Source: a virus
Virus record (IMG/VR): IMGVR_UViG_3300032053_010050
Span: 1-23,836 of that record
Strand: one strand, 5' to 3'
DNA: 23,836 bases
A program made the translations under genes and the position numbers. The notes below the pieces were generated by a model that saw nothing but the letters and a program-made list of their open reading frames with translations, was not told where the DNA came from and did not search any database. Shown in pieces: positions 1,636-23,836 of this stretch; the stretch's first letter is position 1, and each line of letters starts with the position of its first letter.

Positions 1636-2006
1636 TTGGTTACAAAGCCGTCCTCTGGCTTGGGGCAGCCCCCCTCCCCTGCTACCACGGTACTACCACC
1701 GCCCCACCCCTTCTCTATCGGTACTGCCGACCCGTCCTTGTAGGATTGATATGCCATCATCTGCACGTCGGCCTCTTCAATAAGAGCATATAATTCTTGA
1801 AGAGATCGCATCGCATCTCCGAGTTCTACATGCGCTGCTCGAATCGATGAGTCTTCACTTTCTCGATCGAACAGCGCAGAAAGAGAATTATTAACAAACT
1901 TAGAAACATCTTCAATCTTTTGACCGGAGGTTTTTGATAGATGTTCGTGAATCAAATCAAGAACATCCTCGTCGTTACAGCTCCAGCTTAATTTAATGCG
2001 TGTCAT
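1632..2006 (-). CDS. Hypothetical helical protein with Gly-rich C-terminus
   Basis: A 124-residue protein. I choose ATG 2006 (MTRIKLSWSCNDED) over the upstream ATG at 2024, because it overlaps the previous stop as ATGA and follows a near-ideal GGAGG six bases upstream. The first 85 residues look helical, with a DUF1778/Arc-like flavour (DEDVLDLIHEHLSKTSGQ, then SKFVNNSLSALFDRE) and a later helix (HVELGDAMRSLQELYALIEE). The last 30 residues are Gly-rich and probably disordered (EKGWGGGSTVVAGEGG). I recognise no domain with confidence. It belongs to the tightly packed operon of small genes from 2905 to 634. Confidence 0.6.
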   Translation of the reverse strand: MTRIKLSWSCNDEDVLDLIHEHLSKTSGQKIEDVSKFVNNSLSALFDRESEDSSIRAAHVELGDAMRSLQELYALIEEADVQMMAYQSYKDGSAVPIEKGWGGGSTVVAGEGGCPKPEDGFVTK

Positions 2007-2281
2007 TTTGTTCCTCCATGGCACTCCTTCATTGTAATATAATCTAGCATTCTTTCAATAGCCACTTTTCGAACATCTGAATCGGGATCGTTAATAAAAG
2101 CGTCAAGTAGTTTAATAGTACATCTTTCTGCCGCAATTTTTCTAAGGCTCCATCCCATTGAGTTTTCTCCGCGATACACATAATTAGATAAAAATTCAAC
2201 GGGACACTTTTTTGCAATCATCTCCCGAACATTGGGAGAGCTATCTTTGCAACATTGTTCACAAATTTCATAGGATGTCAT
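2003..2281 (-). CDS. Small HEAT-repeat-like protein
   Basis: A 92-residue protein with two to three short helical repeats. Telling segments are SPNVREMIAKKCPVEFLSNY, WSLRKIAAERCTIKLLDAFI and PDSDVRKVAIERMLDYI. The pattern 'D.d..VRk.aaer' followed by a hydrophobic helix is the signature of HEAT/Leu-rich-variant repeats, which usually form protein-binding solenoids. It has four Cys, three of them at the N-terminus (CEQCC). It starts at ATG 2281 as ATGA with AAGG eight bases upstream, and ends in the ATGA of the next gene. The partner is unknown. The repeat style (degenerate, about 30 residues) differs from the regular 22-residue repeats of the gene at 13455-14252. Confidence 0.62.
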   Translation of the reverse strand: MTSYEICEQCCKDSSPNVREMIAKKCPVEFLSNYVYRGENSMGWSLRKIAAERCTIKLLDAFINDPDSDVRKVAIERMLDYITMKECHGGTK

Positions 2282-3248: not shown

Positions 3249-4874
3249 TTAGCATTTACATTTCTTTTCTTTTTCATCCGGAACTTCTACAATCGCCCCT
3301 GACATCATTAACAATGCACAGGCGGCGCTTGCCGCATTAACCAAAGACAATGACACAACCCTAGAAGGATCAACAATTCCGGCAACAAACATATCATCAA
3401 CCCATTTCCAATTTGCAAAGTCAAATCCTCCTTTGCAATCGTTATCGTAAAACTTCTTTTGCATATCTTCTGCTTTGGCCATATCTTGTTTGGCATTTTG
3501 AACCAGCTTGTGGAAGGGCCATTCAAGTGCTTTCGCAACAATTTGCAATCCAATCTTGTCCACGTTAGAGACCGTATCGCTATTTGTCAAAGAAAGCAAA
3601 TCTTTTGCGACTGCCAACTGAGTTGTTCCGCCGCCTGCAACGATTCCACCGTCGATTGCGGCCCTGACAGCTTCTAGAGCATCTTGAACTCTGTGCAGCT
3701 TTTCAATCGTTTCGGATTCTGTCTGGCCGCCAACCTTAACGATCGCTGCCCCAGAAGACAGTCTTGTAACACGATTCTGAATAACCTTTGCAAGATTTTC
3801 ATCGCTCTCTTCTTTAACTTCTCGCTTTAAGATTTCAATCCTTTCATTAATCTTTTCTTTGTCTCCTGCGCCTTTGACAATAATGGTGGAATTCTTGGAA
3901 ATTTCAATCTTCTCGGCTCGCCCTAAATCTTCCAATTTGATATCCTGCAAATTCATTCCGAGATCGCGTCTAAAATATTTACCGCCGAGGAATAAAGAAA
4001 GATCGTCGAGAATAGCCTTGCGATTTTCGCCCCAATCTGGGCATTCTACGCCGCTCGTTAACATCGTGCCCCTGGCAGCGTTAACAATTAAAGCTGCCAA
4101 AGCTTGATCTCTAATGTCCCCGATTACGACCAAAGGAGCGTTCTCGCGCGCTGCCAATTCTAATACTGGCATCAGGTCTTGAACCATAGTAAAAGAAATA
4201 TCCGAAACTAGAACCAATGGATTTGAATAAACGACAATTCCCTTTCTTGGGTCGTTAACAAACTGATTCGAGAGATAGCCTGAATTAAATTTAAAGCCGT
4301 CGATCAGAGAGAGTGTCGTGTTAAAAGAATGTGATTCTTCTATCGAGATTGCTCCGCCAACCCCAACACTATCGACTGCCCTAACTATTAAATCGCTAAT
4401 AACATCGTCTCCGTTTGAAGAAATGAGAGCAATGTTTTTAATTTCTTCGAGACTTGAAATAATCTTTGTTCTATCGTTAATGTAGGTTGCTGACCGTTGT
4501 ATCGCACGTTCAATTGATTTTTTTAGAGAAGTAACGGTAATGTAATCCTTGGCAGAATTTAACATTTCGATGGCGTTCTGTAGAATGGCGTAGGTAAGAA
4601 TTATTGAAGTGCTTGTTCCGTCGCCGCAAGAAATATTGGTAGCCGAAGCTGATTGTTTGGCAATAGTACATGCCGCATTTTCAAAAGGATCTTCAAGCTC
4701 AACAAATTTAGCTGCACTAATTCCATCTTTGGTTAAAATAATCCCATCTTTTGACTCTTGTAATAATACCGTTTTCCCGTTCGGTCCAAGAGTGTCTGAA
4801 ACAATCGAGTACAATTTCCGAACGCCTTCAAGACATTTAGTTTGAAGCTCTTTACCTGTACATATTTTTTTCAT
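3249..4874 (-). CDS. groEL: GroEL chaperonin (phage-encoded, complete)
   Basis: A group I chaperonin subunit of 541 residues (E. coli GroEL is 548). Such subunits form double-ring ATPases that fold substrates in a chamber closed by GroES. Hallmarks in order: TLGPNGKTVLL near residue 28 and DGISAAKFVELEDPFENAA near 50; GDGTSTS near 85, holding the ATP-site Asp; GYLSNQFVNDP near 197 at the start of the apical domain; VQDALEAVRAAIDGGIVAGG near 393, holding the hydrolysis Asp; and GIVDPSRVV near 490. The equatorial, intermediate and apical domains are all present, so it should be active. The usual GGM tail is replaced by a charged Cys-containing end (EKEKKCKC). ATG 4874 follows GGAGGAATAA. It lies between the amidase and a membrane protein, far from the GroES-like gene at 14301. 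It probably folds phage proteins; the substrate is unknown. Confidence 0.96.
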   Translation of the reverse strand: MKKICTGKELQTKCLEGVRKLYSIVSDTLGPNGKTVLLQESKDGIILTKDGISAAKFVELEDPFENAACTIAKQSASATNISCGDGTSTSIILTYAILQNAIEMLNSAKDYITVTSLKKSIERAIQRSATYINDRTKIISSLEEIKNIALISSNGDDVISDLIVRAVDSVGVGGAISIEESHSFNTTLSLIDGFKFNSGYLSNQFVNDPRKGIVVYSNPLVLVSDISFTMVQDLMPVLELAARENAPLVVIGDIRDQALAALIVNAARGTMLTSGVECPDWGENRKAILDDLSLFLGGKYFRRDLGMNLQDIKLEDLGRAEKIEISKNSTIIVKGAGDKEKINERIEILKREVKEESDENLAKVIQNRVTRLSSGAAIVKVGGQTESETIEKLHRVQDALEAVRAAIDGGIVAGGGTTQLAVAKDLLSLTNSDTVSNVDKIGLQIVAKALEWPFHKLVQNAKQDMAKAEDMQKKFYDNDCKGGFDFANWKWVDDMFVAGIVDPSRVVSLSLVNAASAACALLMMSGAIVEVPDEKEKKCKC

Positions 4875-4920
4875 TTATTCCTCCGGTTCTTTCCAATATC
4901 TTGCAATTTACGAAAAAAGA

Positions 4921-5706
4921 TTAAATCTCGTTAATTCTTTTTAACATTTTTTCAAAATCAAATCCAATTGGGTCTATCTTGTTAGTTGTAATCATGTAGT
5001 GGCCGATTATGCCACGATATTTGTTTAAATCTTCTTGTTTCATGGCCGTCGAAATAATTTTTCCATCTTTGTCTCGTGGAGTCTCCAATGGAATACTACA
5101 AATATTACAAACAACTTTTACCAACTCGGCGACCGCTCGCTCTTGTACATCGTAAAACCCCAAAAATGGTCCTAATTTTTGGCCATGTACGATTTCGTCC
5201 AAAATAATCGGCCTTGGGCCTATATGCTTTGTACAGTAAGGTTGAAATTTCAAAAAATAAGGATTTACGATTTCTATACCAATCGACCGGGAATTCGCTC
5301 CAGCGCAATGTTCCGTTATTTCAGCGATGTCGGCCAACTGTAGGATAACGCCATTTTCTGAAACGATGAAATTTACTCCGAGATTTCTTTCCTTTAAAAC
5401 TCTTATTGTACTTTGAGCATCTGTTGTAACCGTCCAATGTAAAACTATTAAATCATTAACCTTGTTATCTTTTTTAATTGAATTACAGCTTTTTCCATCC
5501 GGGTCGAGAAAATTAATTGTTTTCCACTGGATTGGATATTTTTGTCCTTTATAAATAATCGAATATTCTCTCTTCTCTCCAGTCGCATCAATACAGCAAT
5601 CTGTTCCTAAACCTAAACGCTCTTCTGCCGCTCTTTTCCTACACACGTCATTTTCGTCGTTAAGATCAATGATATCTTTTGTTACAATTTCTACCTTGCT
5701 AGACAT
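4921..5706 (-). CDS. N-acetylmuramoyl-L-alanine amidase (endolysin)
   Basis: A 261-residue Amidase_2/PGRP-type zinc enzyme that cuts the bond between MurNAc and L-Ala in peptidoglycan. The catalytic domain spans about residues 80-250. Candidate zinc ligands, by AmpD-type alignment, are His90 (VLHWTVT), His236 (GHYMITTNKIDP) and Asp245. The segments GVNFIVSENG and EHCAGANSRSIGIEIVNP are typical of the fold. The first 75 residues (Cys-containing, with FLDPDGKSCNS) match no cell-wall-binding domain I know and may be a small recognition module. There is no signal peptide or membrane anchor, so export would need a holin. ATG 5706 follows AGGAG. It sits between clpP-like and groEL genes. A tail-associated or remodelling role is possible, but a lysin is the simplest reading. 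Confidence 0.88.
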   Translation of the reverse strand: MSSKVEIVTKDIIDLNDENDVCRKRAAEERLGLGTDCCIDATGEKREYSIIYKGQKYPIQWKTINFLDPDGKSCNSIKKDNKVNDLIVLHWTVTTDAQSTIRVLKERNLGVNFIVSENGVILQLADIAEITEHCAGANSRSIGIEIVNPYFLKFQPYCTKHIGPRPIILDEIVHGQKLGPFLGFYDVQERAVAELVKVVCNICSIPLETPRDKDGKIISTAMKQEDLNKYRGIIGHYMITTNKIDPIGFDFEKMLKRINEI

Positions 5707-5717
5707 TGAAGCGTCTC

Positions 5718-6350
5718 CTACAATATATGATCTGCGATACTATACTTAATCGCCTCTTCTGCCGAAAAATAATAATTAACTTTCTTTTTTAATATCTGCT
5801 TAATCATTTTGTCATTAACGGCAGAAGTTTCTTTTAAAATATCATAATATTTTTTCTTTGCAAGTTTTATTTCTTTGATCTCGTTAGTGATGTGCTGTAA
5901 GTCCCCAATCATTGAGCCGTCCACCGATATATCGTGCAAAAGTATCCGACAATTTTTCCCAAGAAATCGATAGCCAACTGTTCCAGCAGACAATAACGGA
6001 ACTCCGGCTGAAAATACCTTTCCAACCCCAACTGTTTTAATTATTACCCCTTTCGATTTTGCATGTTCGATTACATCGTAAAGAGCAAACATATCTTCTG
6101 TGTTGCCGCCAGCAGTTGAAATATAAAACGTAAATGGAATTTGTTTGTTAACGTCTTCTTCTTCAAGTTCTTCAAGTATGTGAACATATTGAAGAATTGC
6201 AAAGATTGCGCCAGCACAAGAAGATTCTTCAACCGGACCATATAAGCCAACTACCGAAATTCCTAAATTCGCGATTGAGGGAAGCGTTTCACAATCTTCA
6301 CAAGATTCATCGTTATTTTCTTCGGCTTCTGCTGCTAAAATTTTAAACAT
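5718..6350 (-). CDS. ClpP-like serine protease with Ser-His-Asn active site
   Basis: A 210-residue protein of the S14/ClpP-crotonase fold. I start it at ATG 6350, with GGAGG seven bases upstream; the extended frame opens only with TTG. Landmarks are FYISTAGGNTEDMFALYDVI (ClpP INSPGG region), GKVFSAGVPLLSAG with nucleophile Ser114, and RILLHD with His139. The C-terminal SAEEAIKYSIADHIL matches ClpP SAEEA..YGLVD. The residue matching catalytic Asp171 of E. coli ClpP is Asn192 (KKVNYYFSAEEA). The N-terminus is short, acidic and Cys-containing (ESCEDCE), not a normal ClpP propeptide. The family degrades proteins with an AAA+ partner or matures phage heads. No Clp ATPase is in the window, and the acidic protein just upstream could be a substrate or scaffold; that is inference. 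Confidence 0.85.
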   Translation of the reverse strand: MFKILAAEAEENNDESCEDCETLPSIANLGISVVGLYGPVEESSCAGAIFAILQYVHILEELEEEDVNKQIPFTFYISTAGGNTEDMFALYDVIEHAKSKGVIIKTVGVGKVFSAGVPLLSAGTVGYRFLGKNCRILLHDISVDGSMIGDLQHITNEIKEIKLAKKKYYDILKETSAVNDKMIKQILKKKVNYYFSAEEAIKYSIADHIL

Positions 6351-6389
6351 TATTATTCCTCCATAGATCAAGTATATCCTATGTTTTGG

Positions 6390-6398
6390 ATAAAATAG
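6390..6398 (-). promoter_or_regulatory. Degenerate CTATTTTAT element before the clpP-like gene
   Basis: The coding strand reads TTTTCTATTTTATCC in the gap between the acidic-protein stop (6421) and the clpP-like ATG (6350). It differs from the CTATTTAT elements by one inserted T and lies about 40 bases before the start codon. A TATACT hexamer lies between it and the ribosome site (GGATATACTTG) and is an alternative -10, though its -35 region is poor. Confidence 0.22.
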
Positions 6399-6420
6399 AA
6401 AATTTATTAATAGGAATTAA

Positions 6421-7233
6421 TTACTTCTTGAGAGCGGAAGTCTTTTTGGCAAGCGCTTCTTTAACCAGACCAGTAAGGCGCGCATAAACACGGTTCACCA
6501 GTTCTTCCATCAACTTGTCATTCTCTAGTAAACCCTTGTCAATGGTTTGTGCCTTCGGACCTTTGGCAGCGCCTGGCTTCGGAGCATTCGGAACCTTGCC
6601 TTTGCCTTCCTCTACCGGAACTTCCTCTTCCTGCATAAGATTGGCAGGAACCTTGTTCGCGGTATTGCCAGGAACCTTGCCCGTCGAACCTACGAGACCT
6701 GGCTTAACGGCCTGTGCCTTTGGAGAAGACGGAGGAGACATTTTTTCGCCTTCTTTTAACGGCAGCTCTTCCTCTTCGCCCGGTACCGGCGGCATCGGGG
6801 GTTCGCCACCTTCTGGAGCCGGAGGAGGAACGCCTGCATCGGCCGGGGGCAGTGCTTCTTCGCCGCCCATTTCGCCACCTTCCATGCCCGCACCAGCACC
6901 AGCACCTTCAACCGAAACCGGAACGCCGGTAGTAGCCTGGATTGTATCTGCAATCGCCTGCACTAGCTCAGTTACTTGTGCCTCTGGCACGGCCCCGCCT
7001 TCCATTCCCTCTGCGCCCTCTGGGGGCATCGGGCTTTCGGCCGGCGGCATCTCACCGCTATCTTCTGCCGGGGGGAAGGCTTCTTCTTCGCCGCCCTCGT
7101 GCTCTTCCTCTTCCTCTTCCCCGCCCTCCATCTGTAGATGTCGCTGAGTTAAGGACTCATTGATCTTCGCCATTTTTCCCCATTTGCTAATAACTTCATT
7201 GGAAAGGATTGGCTTTGCTTTATTCTTTGCCAT
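6421..7233 (-). CDS. Pro/Glu/Gly-rich acidic protein (possible structural or scaffold protein)
   Basis: A 270-residue protein started at ATG 7233, with AAGGAG 11 bases upstream; the frame further upstream opens only with GTG. The N-terminus is basic and helical (ILSNEVISKWGKMAKINE), resembling the 'L.E..I.kw.klA.i' segment near the start of various phage structural proteins. Long low-complexity stretches follow: Glu runs, PPAE/MPPEG repeats and Gly-Ala-Met clusters. The C-terminus is helical and basic (LMEELVNRVYARLTGLVKEA). The gene is markedly richer in G and C than its surroundings because of Pro/Gly/Ala/Glu codons. Disordered acidic middles with helical ends suit prohead scaffolds or virion linkers, but the exact role is unknown. 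Long frames on the opposite strand are composition artefacts. Confidence 0.75.
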   Translation of the reverse strand: MAKNKAKPILSNEVISKWGKMAKINESLTQRHLQMEGGEEEEEEHEGGEEEAFPPAEDSGEMPPAESPMPPEGAEGMEGGAVPEAQVTELVQAIADTIQATTGVPVSVEGAGAGAGMEGGEMGGEEALPPADAGVPPPAPEGGEPPMPPVPGEEEELPLKEGEKMSPPSSPKAQAVKPGLVGSTGKVPGNTANKVPANLMQEEEVPVEEGKGKVPNAPKPGAAKGPKAQTIDKGLLENDKLMEELVNRVYARLTGLVKEALAKKTSALKK

Positions 7234-7268
7234 GTGTCTGATTTCTCCTTTTATTCTCACTTGCTTTA

Positions 7269-11793: not shown

Positions 11794-12628
11794 TGTTGTC
11801 TCCAACTACTTTATAATCGTTCTCATCTAGCATTCTTGGATGATAATTAATTTTGCTAATATGTCTTGCAGCGCTTGAACGACAAAATTCTAAATAACTA
11901 TTCCAACTATCAATATAATAATAAAAAGGAGTTACCTGAGATGCCACTTTGTCTCCGTCTAATGGCTTAAAAATATCTTTTAGCTTGTAAATAGGTTTTC
12001 CTGCCTTTTCGCGAAGATCATAATTCTCCTGAATCCATTGCAAACTTTCTCTACAGAACGAAAAGTTAACCGGAGCATCCTCCAACACCGAAACCTTCTC
12101 GGGAGAATAAAGAATAATATTTTTATTTGTTGTCCCGCTGTTTCTAAACGCCTCTCCAATCGTTCTCGCTTTGGAAATAGAATGAATCGCAAGAGGAAAA
12201 GAAACATAATATCTTCGTGGAACTATGTTGTGAGCAAACATCCTTGCTATATGATTAACAACTGTCGCGCCGTATAAAATGCTCCATCCAACAGAACAAT
12301 TTCTAGTTTTCACATCTTCTTGATTTAACGAAAGATAATAAATATTCTTTTTTGTCTTATTCTTTACTTCGTAATATTCTCCCACACAAGATCTTAAAAG
12401 CGGTTCCATCGGATTCGTGCAAACAATCCAAACAGCCGAGCATCCTGCTCCGATGCACTCTAGCACCGCATGTTCAATTAAATTCAAATGTCTCCCAATC
12501 GGTAGCAAACAAGGGCCAACCGGAAGATGCAATCCCCCTTTAAAAATAGACCCGGCAACTGGAACAATGCCAGCCATATCAAAGGGATAGCCGTTTTCTT
12601 TCTTTTTAAGGATGGGAAACTTCTTCAT
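11786..12628 (-). CDS. Nucleotidyltransferase-like (GT-A fold) protein
   Basis: A 280-residue protein started at ATG 12628 behind GGTGAG; the longer frame starts with GTG. The N-terminus looks like sugar-nucleotidyltransferases: a strand with MAGIVPVAG, then LPVGPCLLPIGRHLNLIEHA and LECIGAGCSAVWIVCTN (compare 'K.llpi..kPlie..i..l..aGi..i.iv'). A second region (RNCSVGWSILYGATVVNHIA ... VSFPLAIHS) fits the substrate half. The signature 'G.GtRl' loop is replaced by AGSIFKGG and the usual Asp metal motif is not obvious. It may therefore be a divergent or inactive member. It lies between dnaE (8-base overlap) and an unknown protein (23-base overlap). It may act in nucleotide or DNA modification, but no substrate can be assigned. 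Confidence 0.6.
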   Translation of the reverse strand: MKKFPILKKKENGYPFDMAGIVPVAGSIFKGGLHLPVGPCLLPIGRHLNLIEHAVLECIGAGCSAVWIVCTNPMEPLLRSCVGEYYEVKNKTKKNIYYLSLNQEDVKTRNCSVGWSILYGATVVNHIARMFAHNIVPRRYYVSFPLAIHSISKARTIGEAFRNSGTTNKNIILYSPEKVSVLEDAPVNFSFCRESLQWIQENYDLREKAGKPIYKLKDIFKPLDGDKVASQVTPFYYYIDSWNSYLEFCRSSAARHISKINYHPRMLDENDYKVVGDNND

Positions 12629-13430
12629 CAATCTCACCGTGATTCAAAAAGATTATATTACTTGTGTTCTTATAGTAATTTATACTGCGACTAATTCTTT
12701 CTCTTTCTAAGAACGTAGCCTTCACACGATCGTAACCTTCTTTAACCGTTCCGTCAAGTAATCTGTATTTTCTTTTCCTTCCAAATACTTCCATGTGCTC
12801 CAAAATCTTTTTAAGTTTAATTGAAACAATTGAAGTGCTGAACTCAATGTCCTCCAGCATATCATTGCTAAAATAAGATATAACCGCAATCTTGTCAACA
12901 ATTCCCTTTTTATCCGAGGGCAACAATAAAACTTTTGAAATAAATCTTCTTTCTTCTTCCGGGCTCCAGGTTTTAAGAGTAGAGTGTACGGGCCGACCGG
13001 CTCTTTCTTTTAATTCAAAGTAATCTATGATAATGTATTCGCCACCATTATCTGTATGCGCTGGAAAGTCTATACCGACTGACCAACATTTATCATCGAA
13101 AACATAAAGCTTGTCAAATTTAATTTTAATCGGACGATAAACATTGTTGTCAACTTCTTCTGAAAATTGAACATTTACCGTGTTCTTTTCATGAGAAAAC
13201 GTTGTTATTGTTTTGTTTACAATGCCAAAGGGAAGAAGTCCCTGAAAAGACATCATAAACAATATTTCGTCCATCTCCTCTGAGCGCTCTTTGACGCTCG
13301 CTTCCAATATCGAATGAGGATAGCGAAGTTCCCCAATTAATAATGGGATACCGAGGCTGAAAGCAGATTTAACCGAACGATAGTCAGAGCCTATCGCCAG
13401 TTGAGGAATGTATATTTCTTTGCCGGCCAT
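12606..13430 (-). CDS. Hypothetical protein paired with the nucleotidyltransferase-like gene
   Basis: A 274-residue protein that I do not recognise. It begins MAGKEIYIPQLAIGSDYRSV, with an early hydrophobic strand (SLGIPLLIGELRYP) suggesting an alpha/beta N-terminal domain. A beta-rich middle follows (NTVNVQFSEEVDNNVYRPIK ... DDKCWSVGIDFPAH ... GGEYIIIDYFELKERAG). The C-terminal part is helical and charged (ILEHMEVFGRKRKYRLLDG). ATG 13430 lacks a clear ribosome site (GAGAAACG is weak). The 23-base overlap with the next gene suggests the two products act together. No nuclease, kinase or methylase motif is visible. Confidence 0.68.
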   Translation of the reverse strand: MAGKEIYIPQLAIGSDYRSVKSAFSLGIPLLIGELRYPHSILEASVKERSEEMDEILFMMSFQGLLPFGIVNKTITTFSHEKNTVNVQFSEEVDNNVYRPIKIKFDKLYVFDDKCWSVGIDFPAHTDNGGEYIIIDYFELKERAGRPVHSTLKTWSPEEERRFISKVLLLPSDKKGIVDKIAVISYFSNDMLEDIEFSTSIVSIKLKKILEHMEVFGRKRKYRLLDGTVKEGYDRVKATFLERERISRSINYYKNTSNIIFLNHGEIDEEVSHP

Positions 13431-13454: not shown

Positions 13455-14252
13455 TCACCACTTTCCCCAAGCCAACATTGGATTTGCAATCCACTTGACC
13501 GCTTCTTGATCTTGTTTAACCGCTGCAACCATGACAGCTCCAGAAGGCCAAATGCGCTTGCTCAAGAGCCAATGGATTGCATCTCCATCTTGCTTTACGG
13601 CTTCAAGCTGGACAGCCTCTGATGGGTTGTTGATATACTGGATTGCATCTCCATCTTGCTTTACGGCTTCAAGCTGGACAGCCTCTGATGGGTTGTTGAT
13701 ATACTTGATTGCATTTCCATCTTGCTTTACGGCTGCAAGCTGGACAGCCTCTGATGGGTTGCGGATATGCTGGATTGCATATCCATCTTGCTTTACGGCT
13801 TCAAGCTGGACAGCCTTTGATGGGTTGCGGATATAATGGATTGCATCTCCATATTGCTTTACGGCTTCAAGCTGGACAGCCTCTGATGGGTTGTTGATAT
13901 GCTGGATTGCATTTCCATATTTCTTTACGGCGTCAAGCTGAACAGCCTCTGATGGGTTGTTGACATACCGGATTGCATCTCCATTTTTCTTTACGGCTTC
14001 AAGTTGGACAGCCTCTGATGGGTTGTTGATATAATAGATTGCATATCCATCTTGCTTTACGGCTGCAAGCTGAACAGCCTCTGATGGGTTGTTGATATAC
14101 CGGATTGCATCTCCATCTTGCTTTACGGCTTCAAGCTGGACAGCCTCTGATGGGTTGCTGATATGCTGGATTGCATCTCCATATTTCTTTACGGCTTCAA
14201 GCTGCTCCTGTCCGGAAAGATGATCGTACAATTTCTTTGATTTTGATTTCAT
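13455..14252 (-). CDS. 22-residue tandem repeat protein (DUF4116-like helical repeats)
   Basis: A 265-residue protein made almost wholly of repeats of consensus EAVQLEAVKQDGDAI(R/Q)YINNPS. A degenerate first unit follows a basic N-terminus (MKSKSKKLYDHLSGQEQLEA), then nine regular units. A 26-residue unit with an insertion (HWLLSKRIWPS) comes next, then a variant last unit ending ANPMLAWGKW. Each unit should form two short helices, giving a solenoid. 'AV..dg.al.yi..' repeats like DUF4116 occur in protist and giant-virus proteins and some phages; their function is unknown. Conserved Asp, Tyr/His and Asn-Pro positions would line one face. It has no Shine-Dalgarno, and its ATG falls where a promoter at 14259-14287 should start transcription, so it may be translated from a leaderless message. 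Its G+C is higher than its neighbours, hinting at separate origin. Confidence 0.85.
   Translation of the reverse strand: MKSKSKKLYDHLSGQEQLEAVKKYGDAIQHISNPSEAVQLEAVKQDGDAIRYINNPSEAVQLAAVKQDGYAIYYINNPSEAVQLEAVKKNGDAIRYVNNPSEAVQLDAVKKYGNAIQHINNPSEAVQLEAVKQYGDAIHYIRNPSKAVQLEAVKQDGYAIQHIRNPSEAVQLAAVKQDGNAIKYINNPSEAVQLEAVKQDGDAIQYINNPSEAVQLEAVKQDGDAIHWLLSKRIWPSGAVMVAAVKQDQEAVKWIANPMLAWGKW
13611..14204 (-). repeat. Nine 66-bp direct tandem repeats inside the repeat-protein gene
   Basis: The words GACAGCCTCTGATGGG (plus strand) recur with exact 66-base spacing at 13611, 13677, 13743, 13809 (one change), 13875, 13941 (changed), 14007, 14073 (changed) and 14139. There is no insertion or deletion across nine units. 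Many third-codon positions are identical between units, so the copies look recent or homogenised. A further unit at 13533-13610 is 78 bases long. Such an array is prone to copy-number change and to assembly collapse. Confidence 0.93.
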
Positions 14253-14258
14253 GGATCG

Positions 14259-14287
14259 ATTTTAGCCGAAAAAAAAGAAAAAGTAAA
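14259..14287 (-). promoter_or_regulatory. Sigma70-like promoter for the repeat-protein gene
   Basis: On the coding strand, TTTACT (14287-14282) is followed after exactly 17 bases by TAAAAT (14264-14259), close to TTGACA/TATAAT. Six bases (CGATCC) separate the -10 box from the ATG at 14252, so transcription should start at or next to the A of the start codon. The -35 box abuts the U-tract of the terminator at 14289-14313. That arrangement supports an independent transcription unit. Confidence 0.6.
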
Positions 14288-14288
14288 G

Positions 14289-14313
14289 AAAAAAAGGAGA
14301 TTAAAAATCCTCC
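14289..14313 (-). terminator. Intrinsic terminator at the end of the GroES-like gene
   Basis: The coding strand reads GGAGGATT, loop TTT, AATCTCC, then seven T. The stem is seven base pairs with a single bulged G, and includes the stop codon TAA of the GroES-like gene. A T-rich tract continues after it. Moderately strong by eye. Confidence 0.6.
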
Positions 14314-14579
14314 TCTTCTGCCGCGATTACAGAAGAATAAGGAACGAAGTAAAGAATCTTGCCATCCAATTTAACTTCTTCAATGCCTGAAGAATGAACG
14401 ATCAATCGCTTTCCGTTGTAATAATCGTTTGACGGGCCAGAGCCAGAAATTTGCTTGACAACCCAATGGGCCTTTGAAGGTGCAGGCGCCATGTTGGCAA
14501 GACAAAAATCTTGATGCTTCTTTTCATCTTCCGTCTCAATCTTCTCGACAAGAAGATAACTATTCATTGGGTGAAACAT
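14301..14579 (-). CDS. GroES-like co-chaperonin
   Basis: A 92-residue protein (E. coli GroES 97, T4 gp31 111) that would cap the GroEL ring. It opens MNSYLLVEKIETEDEKK, the first strand and turn of the fold. A flexible stretch follows with a hydrophobic patch (FCLA, residues 25-28), where GroES has its mobile-loop IVL tripeptide. The rest, HWVVKQISGSG then NGKRLIVHSSGIEEVKLDGK and ILYFVPYSSVIA, matches the beta-barrel pattern common in phage co-chaperonins ('l.v..s.veei.vdG...y.v.e..v'). The short roof loop is replaced by GPSNDY. Start ATG 14579 has AAGGA nine bases upstream; ATG 14567 is possible. It is 9.4 kb from groEL and followed by a terminator, so the pair is not one operon. The family call rests on pattern, not an alignment score. 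Confidence 0.72.
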   Translation of the reverse strand: MFHPMNSYLLVEKIETEDEKKHQDFCLANMAPAPSKAHWVVKQISGSGPSNDYYNGKRLIVHSSGIEEVKLDGKILYFVPYSSVIAAEEEDF

Positions 14580-23323: not shown

Positions 23324-23836
23324 TTACTGCTTATCAGCATCTTCTTCAACGCTGGCAAACGCCGCATCAATATCGGGGTTGCCAGTCTTCTCTACTGCCG
23401 GTGCTGCGCCATACTGTGCAGTCTCGCTCGACCCTGCGGGCTCTGCGCCAGGAACGTCTTCAGGCGCGTTATCACTCTTCGACATGAACTTATCAACGAT
23501 CGACTGGATTTCCTCAGTGCTCTTGCGAGGAAACACTTGATGAAAATCTGGGACAGAATCAAGAAGCTTCTTAACCGCCTCGTCGGACTCTGCTAACTTG
23601 CTAACCGCTCGATCCCATTCCTTGTTAATCTTGCCAAACTCAGTACCAGTTTCTTTTGGAGTCTTCTTCGTCACGATAATGTCAGTTCCTTCGTCTACAT
23701 CGGTAACGTCGCCATACTGAGGATTTACCAGCTTCGCCCGAAGATCTGTATGAAACTCAAAATTGTATGACCACCACTTTGGCGGATCTTCTGGGCGTTC
23801 ACGAACCACAACAGGAGAAAAATAATACTCTTTTGA
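23324..23836 (-). CDS. gp32-like single-stranded DNA-binding protein, C-terminal part (5' end outside window)
   Basis: The frame is open from the right edge (first whole codon 23834-23836) to TAA/TAG at 23324, giving 170 residues of the C-terminal part. A GTG at 23809 is not needed as a start because the frame continues upstream (KEYYFSPVVVRERPEDP). The order is a strand region (WWSYNFEFHTDLRAKLVN), YGDVTDVDEGTDIIVTKK as in the core of phage SSBs, then a helical part with LLDSVPDFHQVFPRKSTEEI. A disordered Ala/Pro/Glu stretch follows, with an acidic tip (DAAFASVEEDADKQ) like the protein-recruiting tail of gp32. It lies upstream of UvsX as expected in a replication operon and is followed by a strong terminator, suiting high expression. 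The N-terminal OB core is not visible, so identity is moderately sure. Confidence 0.65.
   Translation of the reverse strand, partial: SKEYYFSPVVVRERPEDPPKWWSYNFEFHTDLRAKLVNPQYGDVTDVDEGTDIIVTKKTPKETGTEFGKINKEWDRAVSKLAESDEAVKKLLDSVPDFHQVFPRKSTEEIQSIVDKFMSKSDNAPEDVPGAEPAGSSETAQYGAAPAVEKTGNPDIDAAFASVEEDADKQ

Follow-up and report, generated by a model that had tools for sequence, protein, structure and literature searches.

A gene of the window, the whole 23.8 kb stretch of phage DNA that was analysed, encodes a DUF4116 repeat protein (PF13475) built from near-identical 22-residue units. These units recur in a second gene, on another contig; nonsynonymous change exceeds silent change at a few fixed unit positions, and the gene is accessory in its distribution. 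The main reading, to which we give a probability of about 0.5, is that the protein is a recognition solenoid that recombines rapidly, is re-tuned by unit exchange and diversifying selection, and is carried as cargo in phage–host conflict. Each DUF4116 unit would keep a fixed framework of hydrophobic and turn residues, and positions 7, 8, 10, 13, and 16, at the end of helix A, in helix B, and in the following loop, would be the recognition surface, presumably a single one shared by all five positions. The array may gain, lose, and swap units through recombination between near-identical 66-bp units, possibly also with the array in the second gene of what appears to be the same phage, and selection would favour change at the recognition positions. 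The accessory gene for the solenoid occupies a cargo slot within the replication region, and its product would bind some variable macromolecule on the host side, most probably a protein, and sequester or redirect it in phage–host conflict; binding, host partner, and anti-defence purpose are what we infer for the window protein. DUF4116 occurs widely, in phages, in Bacteroidales plasmids, and in giant viruses; it has no assigned function and is rarely named in the literature searched. The codon-level pattern leads to a testable claim about binding residues, a variable partner, and unit exchange between genes as a source of variation. If this claim is true, a rapidly adapting binding module is added to the phage–host arms race.

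The open reading frame starts with ATG and encodes 265 amino acids (Table 1). Tandem Repeats Finder detected at 13573–14204 a repeat of period 66 with 9.6 copies, 90% match, 0% indels, and a score of 1033, which is the strongest repeat of the window by a wide margin. Nine full units of 22 amino acids (residues 17–214, nt 14204–13611) follow one another without an indel, with pairwise identities of 85–97% at the nucleotide and 68–95% at the amino acid level. Unit nine is followed by a tenth half unit, the insertion WLLSKRIWPSG, and a degenerate eleventh unit. Two of the 15 variable nucleotide columns are purely silent (position 3 of codons 1 and 22); the differences mostly change amino acids and are clustered in codons 7, 8, 10, 13, 14, and 16. 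The first-pass annotation had described nine units in a row without an indel and variation at a few positions per unit, and this description of the array is confirmed, whereas its interpretation as a whole is partly supported.

Table 1. Coordinates of the repeat gene, its parts, and its surroundings in the window.
Feature	Position	Strand	Evidence or remark
DUF4116 repeat-protein gene, predicted alpha-solenoid	13455..14252	-	ORF; PF13475 E=7.3e-33; phrog_5925 E=1.9e-79; AlphaFold2 pLDDT 91.6
Nine perfect 66-bp / 22-aa units	13611..14204	-	residues 17-214
Degenerate C-terminal units: half unit, 11-residue insertion, divergent unit	13458..13610	-	
121-nt run identical to array in the 1564-aa ORF of L002	13905..14025	-	spans parts of three neighbouring units
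Upstream slot border, putative GroES/Cpn10-like small protein (assigned through homologues)	14301..14579	-	L077 homologue E=3e-8
Downstream slot border, protein next to DnaE region in relatives	12606..13430	-	
Upstream intergenic stretch, promoter-like/terminator-like sequence	14253..14300	-	not above chance

In a scan of IMG/VR, exactly one contig other than the window contained the unit DNA, namely IMGVR_UViG_3300032053_000600 (L002). It carries eleven full units of the 66-bp repeat of the window with identical silent codons, and one unit matches at 66 of 66 nucleotides. Beyond the array, DNA matches between the window and L002 are short and at chance level. The L002 array sits within a 1564-aa multidomain protein that comprises an N-terminal HELVH (HExxH) motif, a ligase-like part, an SC.YG..T.WC domain, the DUF4116 repeats, and a cytidylyltransferase. 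Relatives of this protein have the metallopeptidase-like and ligase–cytidylyltransferase parts without DUF4116, mostly as separate ORFs. When 89 related contigs were compared by tetranucleotide profile with the repeats removed, the window and L002 were closest to each other (0.186, where halves of the same contig average 0.221). On this compositional ground they are probably the same or a sister phage; origin from the same genome is not proven because the two contigs have no end overlap. The SC.YG..T.WC domain, which has no name in Pfam, precedes DUF4116 repeats at L002 137–4831, at L143 5110–7557, and in L004 (SCTP-2), and it occurs without repeats in the relatives L100, L101, and L114. Modelling of this companion domain failed (pLDDT 53.9).

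The nearly fixed silent sites, together with the position of the array within the replication region, would also suit a DNA-level element (iteron-like or a recombination site) to which the protein pattern is secondary, and an assembly artefact would suit the fact that tandem units can be mishandled by short-read assembly. Either is very improbable. Other phages retain the protein framework with different silent codons, which indicates that the DNA sequence of the repeat itself is not conserved. The longest shared exact run of 121 nt and the longest internal exact repeats of 67–74 nt are shorter than common reads, the array has unique flanks on either side, and similar arrays occur in closed plasmids. 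Recent expansion or homogenisation, as proposed in the first-pass annotation, is supported by the near-fixed silent sites and by the unit numbers of orthologous plasmid arrays (14 versus 10). The silent codon pattern differs from phage to phage but is constant over the units of one phage and even over neighbouring paralogous genes (five in L136, about ten in L140), and it is thus a mark of homogenisation within a phage. Clusters of five to about ten adjacent DUF4116 genes in one phage were seen at L136, L140, and L150, and the clustered genes of L136 have a common N-terminus of about 60 aa.

The window protein matches Pfam DUF4116 in seven stretches with 112.3 bits, far above the gathering threshold of 24.9, so the suggested DUF4116-like identity is correct. 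The family, as PF13475 and as PHROG 5925 and 17056, has the same 22-residue NPSE...AVK..G.AI.YI units. An AlphaFold2 model made from a three-sequence alignment confidently predicts an alpha-solenoid with two helices per unit, namely a ten-residue helix A (positions 20–7) and a six-residue helix B (9–14), with the NPS turn between them. An alpha-solenoid was also predicted for the DUF4116 family in a contact-based study (PMC8078820). Solved structures in the PDB gave no significant match to the window protein by sequence or by Foldseek, and the top viral structural matches to the model are DUF4116 proteins as well, of giant viruses and of the jumbo phage Atu_ph07. The best VIA-align Z of the model is 8.7, which is within the range of common repeat arrangements, and therefore no fold family is claimed.

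Helical units that are almost identical except for a few hypervariable polar or aromatic residues (D/N/Y/H and Q/R/K/H/Y) would also be expected of a solenoid that reads nucleic acid by a code of one unit for one base, like TALE or PPR, and the weak fold matches include PPR–RNA complexes (Z about 6). Such a function is improbable for the window protein, which is not basic (28 K+R versus 32 D+E, pI 5.9) and has no dedicated nuclease or activator domain. Its sequence gave no above-cut-off match to TALE/PPR-type nucleic-acid-binding repeat families. PPR is tied with ARM and ankyrin among the VIA-align matches, all within that same common range.

The window protein differs from its DUF4116 relatives in that they have N-terminal domains and it has no extra domain. 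Most other DUF4116 arrays are also more divergent, with a mean unit DNA identity of 0.48–0.88, compared with 0.90 in L002 and 0.85–0.97 in the window. Homologous repeats, several per genome, are found in the jumbo phages Salicola SCTP-2 and Agrobacterium Atu_ph07 and in giant eukaryotic viruses, often together with other domains, such as SC.YG..T.WC in SCTP-2 and F-box-annotated proteins in a marseillevirus-like record. The only PADLOC match, a weak one of the repeats to E1-E2 (E=0.0045), was judged to be due to chance. The window encodes another small helical-repeat protein of 92 aa at 2003–2281(-), which matches HEAT (PF02985, E=1.5e-6). Another contig with a DUF4116 gene, L003, has three adjacent pentapeptide-like repeat proteins with an ANL.GADL pattern at 4903–6539.

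A further scan provided 27 loci with related arrays, and unit positions were ranked across 12 pools. Nonsynonymous change was greatest at positions 10, 13, 8, 7, and 16. The search pattern for units does not constrain these positions or positions 1, 3, 6, 9, 11, 14, 17, 20, and 21, so that the ranking among free positions was not built in. For each array, the hot positions were chosen only from other phages. The window array had a pN_hot/pS ratio of 6.5, L002 one of 4.3, and L143 one of 2.5, with codon-bootstrap intervals that exclude zero and that are approximate because units recombine and are not independent. The ratio was 1.3–1.7 and not significant in the more divergent arrays L136, L138, and L148. 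Significance is thus limited to the three youngest arrays, two of which (window and L002) are mutually non-independent. The claim of selection depends on taking the positions from other phages; over all positions, with none preselected, the excess of pN over pS was not significant (P about 0.12; allele count P 0.11). The variable positions had been proposed as a modular binding surface, and they behave like a surface under selection, at which binding would take place. Homologues with a fixed repeat number and invariant binding positions, which the first-pass annotation had set against its own interpretation, were looked for and did not occur. Five fast residues per unit, combined with units that are common to an unrelated second gene, point to repeated re-tuning toward a changing partner, which is probably a host component.

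The solenoid could instead be structural or a scaffold, for example virion-associated or chaperone-related, with neutral turnover of repeats and exposed positions that are merely unconstrained. A DUF4116 array is fused to an SLT transglycosylase domain in L143 (5110–7557), and the contig that encodes the 1564-aa protein also bears a gp25 baseplate gene, which suggests that some DUF4116 arrays may be virion-associated. The window gene also adjoins the GroES-like gene, and in older arrays hot-position change is not above silent change. This explanation is nevertheless rather unlikely. Relaxed constraint alone cannot lift pN above pS, and the neutral reading is therefore weakened by the 6.5-fold excess at the hot positions of the window array.

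Targeted hypermutation in the style of a diversity-generating retroelement would also suit the array, since changes are found in only a few codons, of which several are A-rich. No reverse transcriptase (RVT_1) was found in the records of the window, L002, L136, L138, and L143, several of which are fragments, and changes other than those of adenine occur among the variable columns (C/T at 14.1, G/T at 13.3). The array was thus rejected as a target of such an element, and hypermutation of this kind is hardly probable.

The window belongs to a tailed phage with a RecA/UvsX-like recombinase, a DnaB-like helicase, ribonucleotide reductase, and dUTPase, and it further encodes DnaE polymerase, the chaperonin GroEL, a ClpP-like protease, and an amidase. 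Single-protein scans with the flanking genes gave no relatives; these came through DnaE, and 80 DnaE-bearing relatives have the common gene order RecA-Exo-DnaB-RNR-...-DnaE-...-ClpP-GroEL. DUF4116 units were absent by pattern and HMM from the 80 DnaE loci and from 24 L002-like loci, and no DUF4116 match over the Pfam cut-off was present in 18 long records (94–193 kb). The slot between the GroES-like gene and the counterpart of the gene ending at 13430 is empty in L098. In other relatives it is occupied by an SLT transglycosylase (L077, L058, L025, L059), ThyX (L092, L045), a GH25 lysozyme (L023), or a cytidylyltransferase (L064). The missing DUF4116 units and the variable slot content show that the window gene is accessory cargo in a variable slot of the replication region. 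At the upstream border, the L098 counterpart matches Cpn10 (PF00166) but is only weakly similar to the window protein in a direct comparison (E=0.022). With GroEL at 3249–4874(-) and this GroES-like protein, assigned by homology through relatives, the phage appears to carry both.

The first-pass annotation had regarded the gene as a mobile 'moron'. Its accessory nature holds, as it is absent from relatives at the same site, but a transcription unit of its own and a foreign composition are not supported. Candidate promoter-like (10 versus 7.8 expected) and terminator-like sites (5 versus 3.5) are not above those of shuffled sequences, the folding z is 0.14, and no Shine-Dalgarno sequence was found upstream of the ATG. 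Locally, the G+C content of the gene (0.460) exceeds that of its neighbours (0.412 and 0.368), but the gene is not unique in the window, where three predicted genes are richer (1632–2024, 0.473; 6421–7260, 0.550; 23324–23809, 0.496). Foreign G+C as a sign of mobility is not supported, and codon choice is not significantly foreign either: the RSCU correlation was 0.18, but this value lies in the 6% tail of an amino-acid-matched control, and foreign codon usage was dropped. The gene with the highest G+C of the window, 6421–7260(-), encodes a low-complexity protein rich in E, P, G, and A.

In closely related Bacteroides fragilis plasmids, orthologous DUF4116 genes have 14 and 10 units with block duplications, in flanking DNA that is 92–99.6% identical. 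In these plasmids, an ArdcN + MPTase-PolyVal (ArdC antirestriction) gene immediately precedes the DUF4116 gene, and two DUF4116 genes follow an LPD5/LPD1 polyvalent gene in Alistipes. Pattern scans of genome contigs gave no confirmed relative; this is a consequence of the pattern method rather than of true absence, since plasmid matches exist. Phages and conjugative elements encode polyvalent proteins, which have been described as injected early-phase conflict effectors (PMC5512222). A polyvalent protein has several (2–15) distinct effector domains per polypeptide. The window protein is a single module of repeats only and has no catalytic domain, in contrast to the products of polyvalent/ArdC operons, whereas the L002 protein with the same units combines several domains, as polyvalent proteins do. 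The full text of that paper does not mention DUF4116. An anti-defence or takeover role is suggested by this gene context, namely the polyvalent/ArdC plasmid neighbours and the L002 multidomain fusion, so that the cross-family link to conflict comprises two plasmid lineages and one fusion protein. It can tentatively be proposed, as a doubtful generalization, that DUF4116 solenoids form a general, combinatorial repertoire for recognition in phages and conjugative plasmids, built on a fixed framework with five hypervariable positions in each unit, in which rapidly adapting anti-defence binders would exchange units between the genes of a genome and be either free-standing or plugged into multidomain conflict proteins.

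Similar turnover is known from other repeats. In Bodo saltans virus, which is also large, ankyrin-repeat genes for solenoid proteins have likewise been duplicated and turned over recently (genomic accordion), and an arms race was proposed as the driver (PMC5871332). That case differs in its repeat family and in that the virus is a eukaryotic one, and its evidence is at the gene level more than at the unit level. Borg elements have recent amino acid tandem repeats inside ORFs, with unit numbers that vary within populations (PMC9879509). Their units are perfect and mostly disordered, whereas those of the window are predicted to be folded and differ at fixed hypervariable positions. In Mycoplasmopsis cynos (L167 4156–12786), three long tandem DUF4116 genes adjoin an Ig-specific serine endopeptidase gene.
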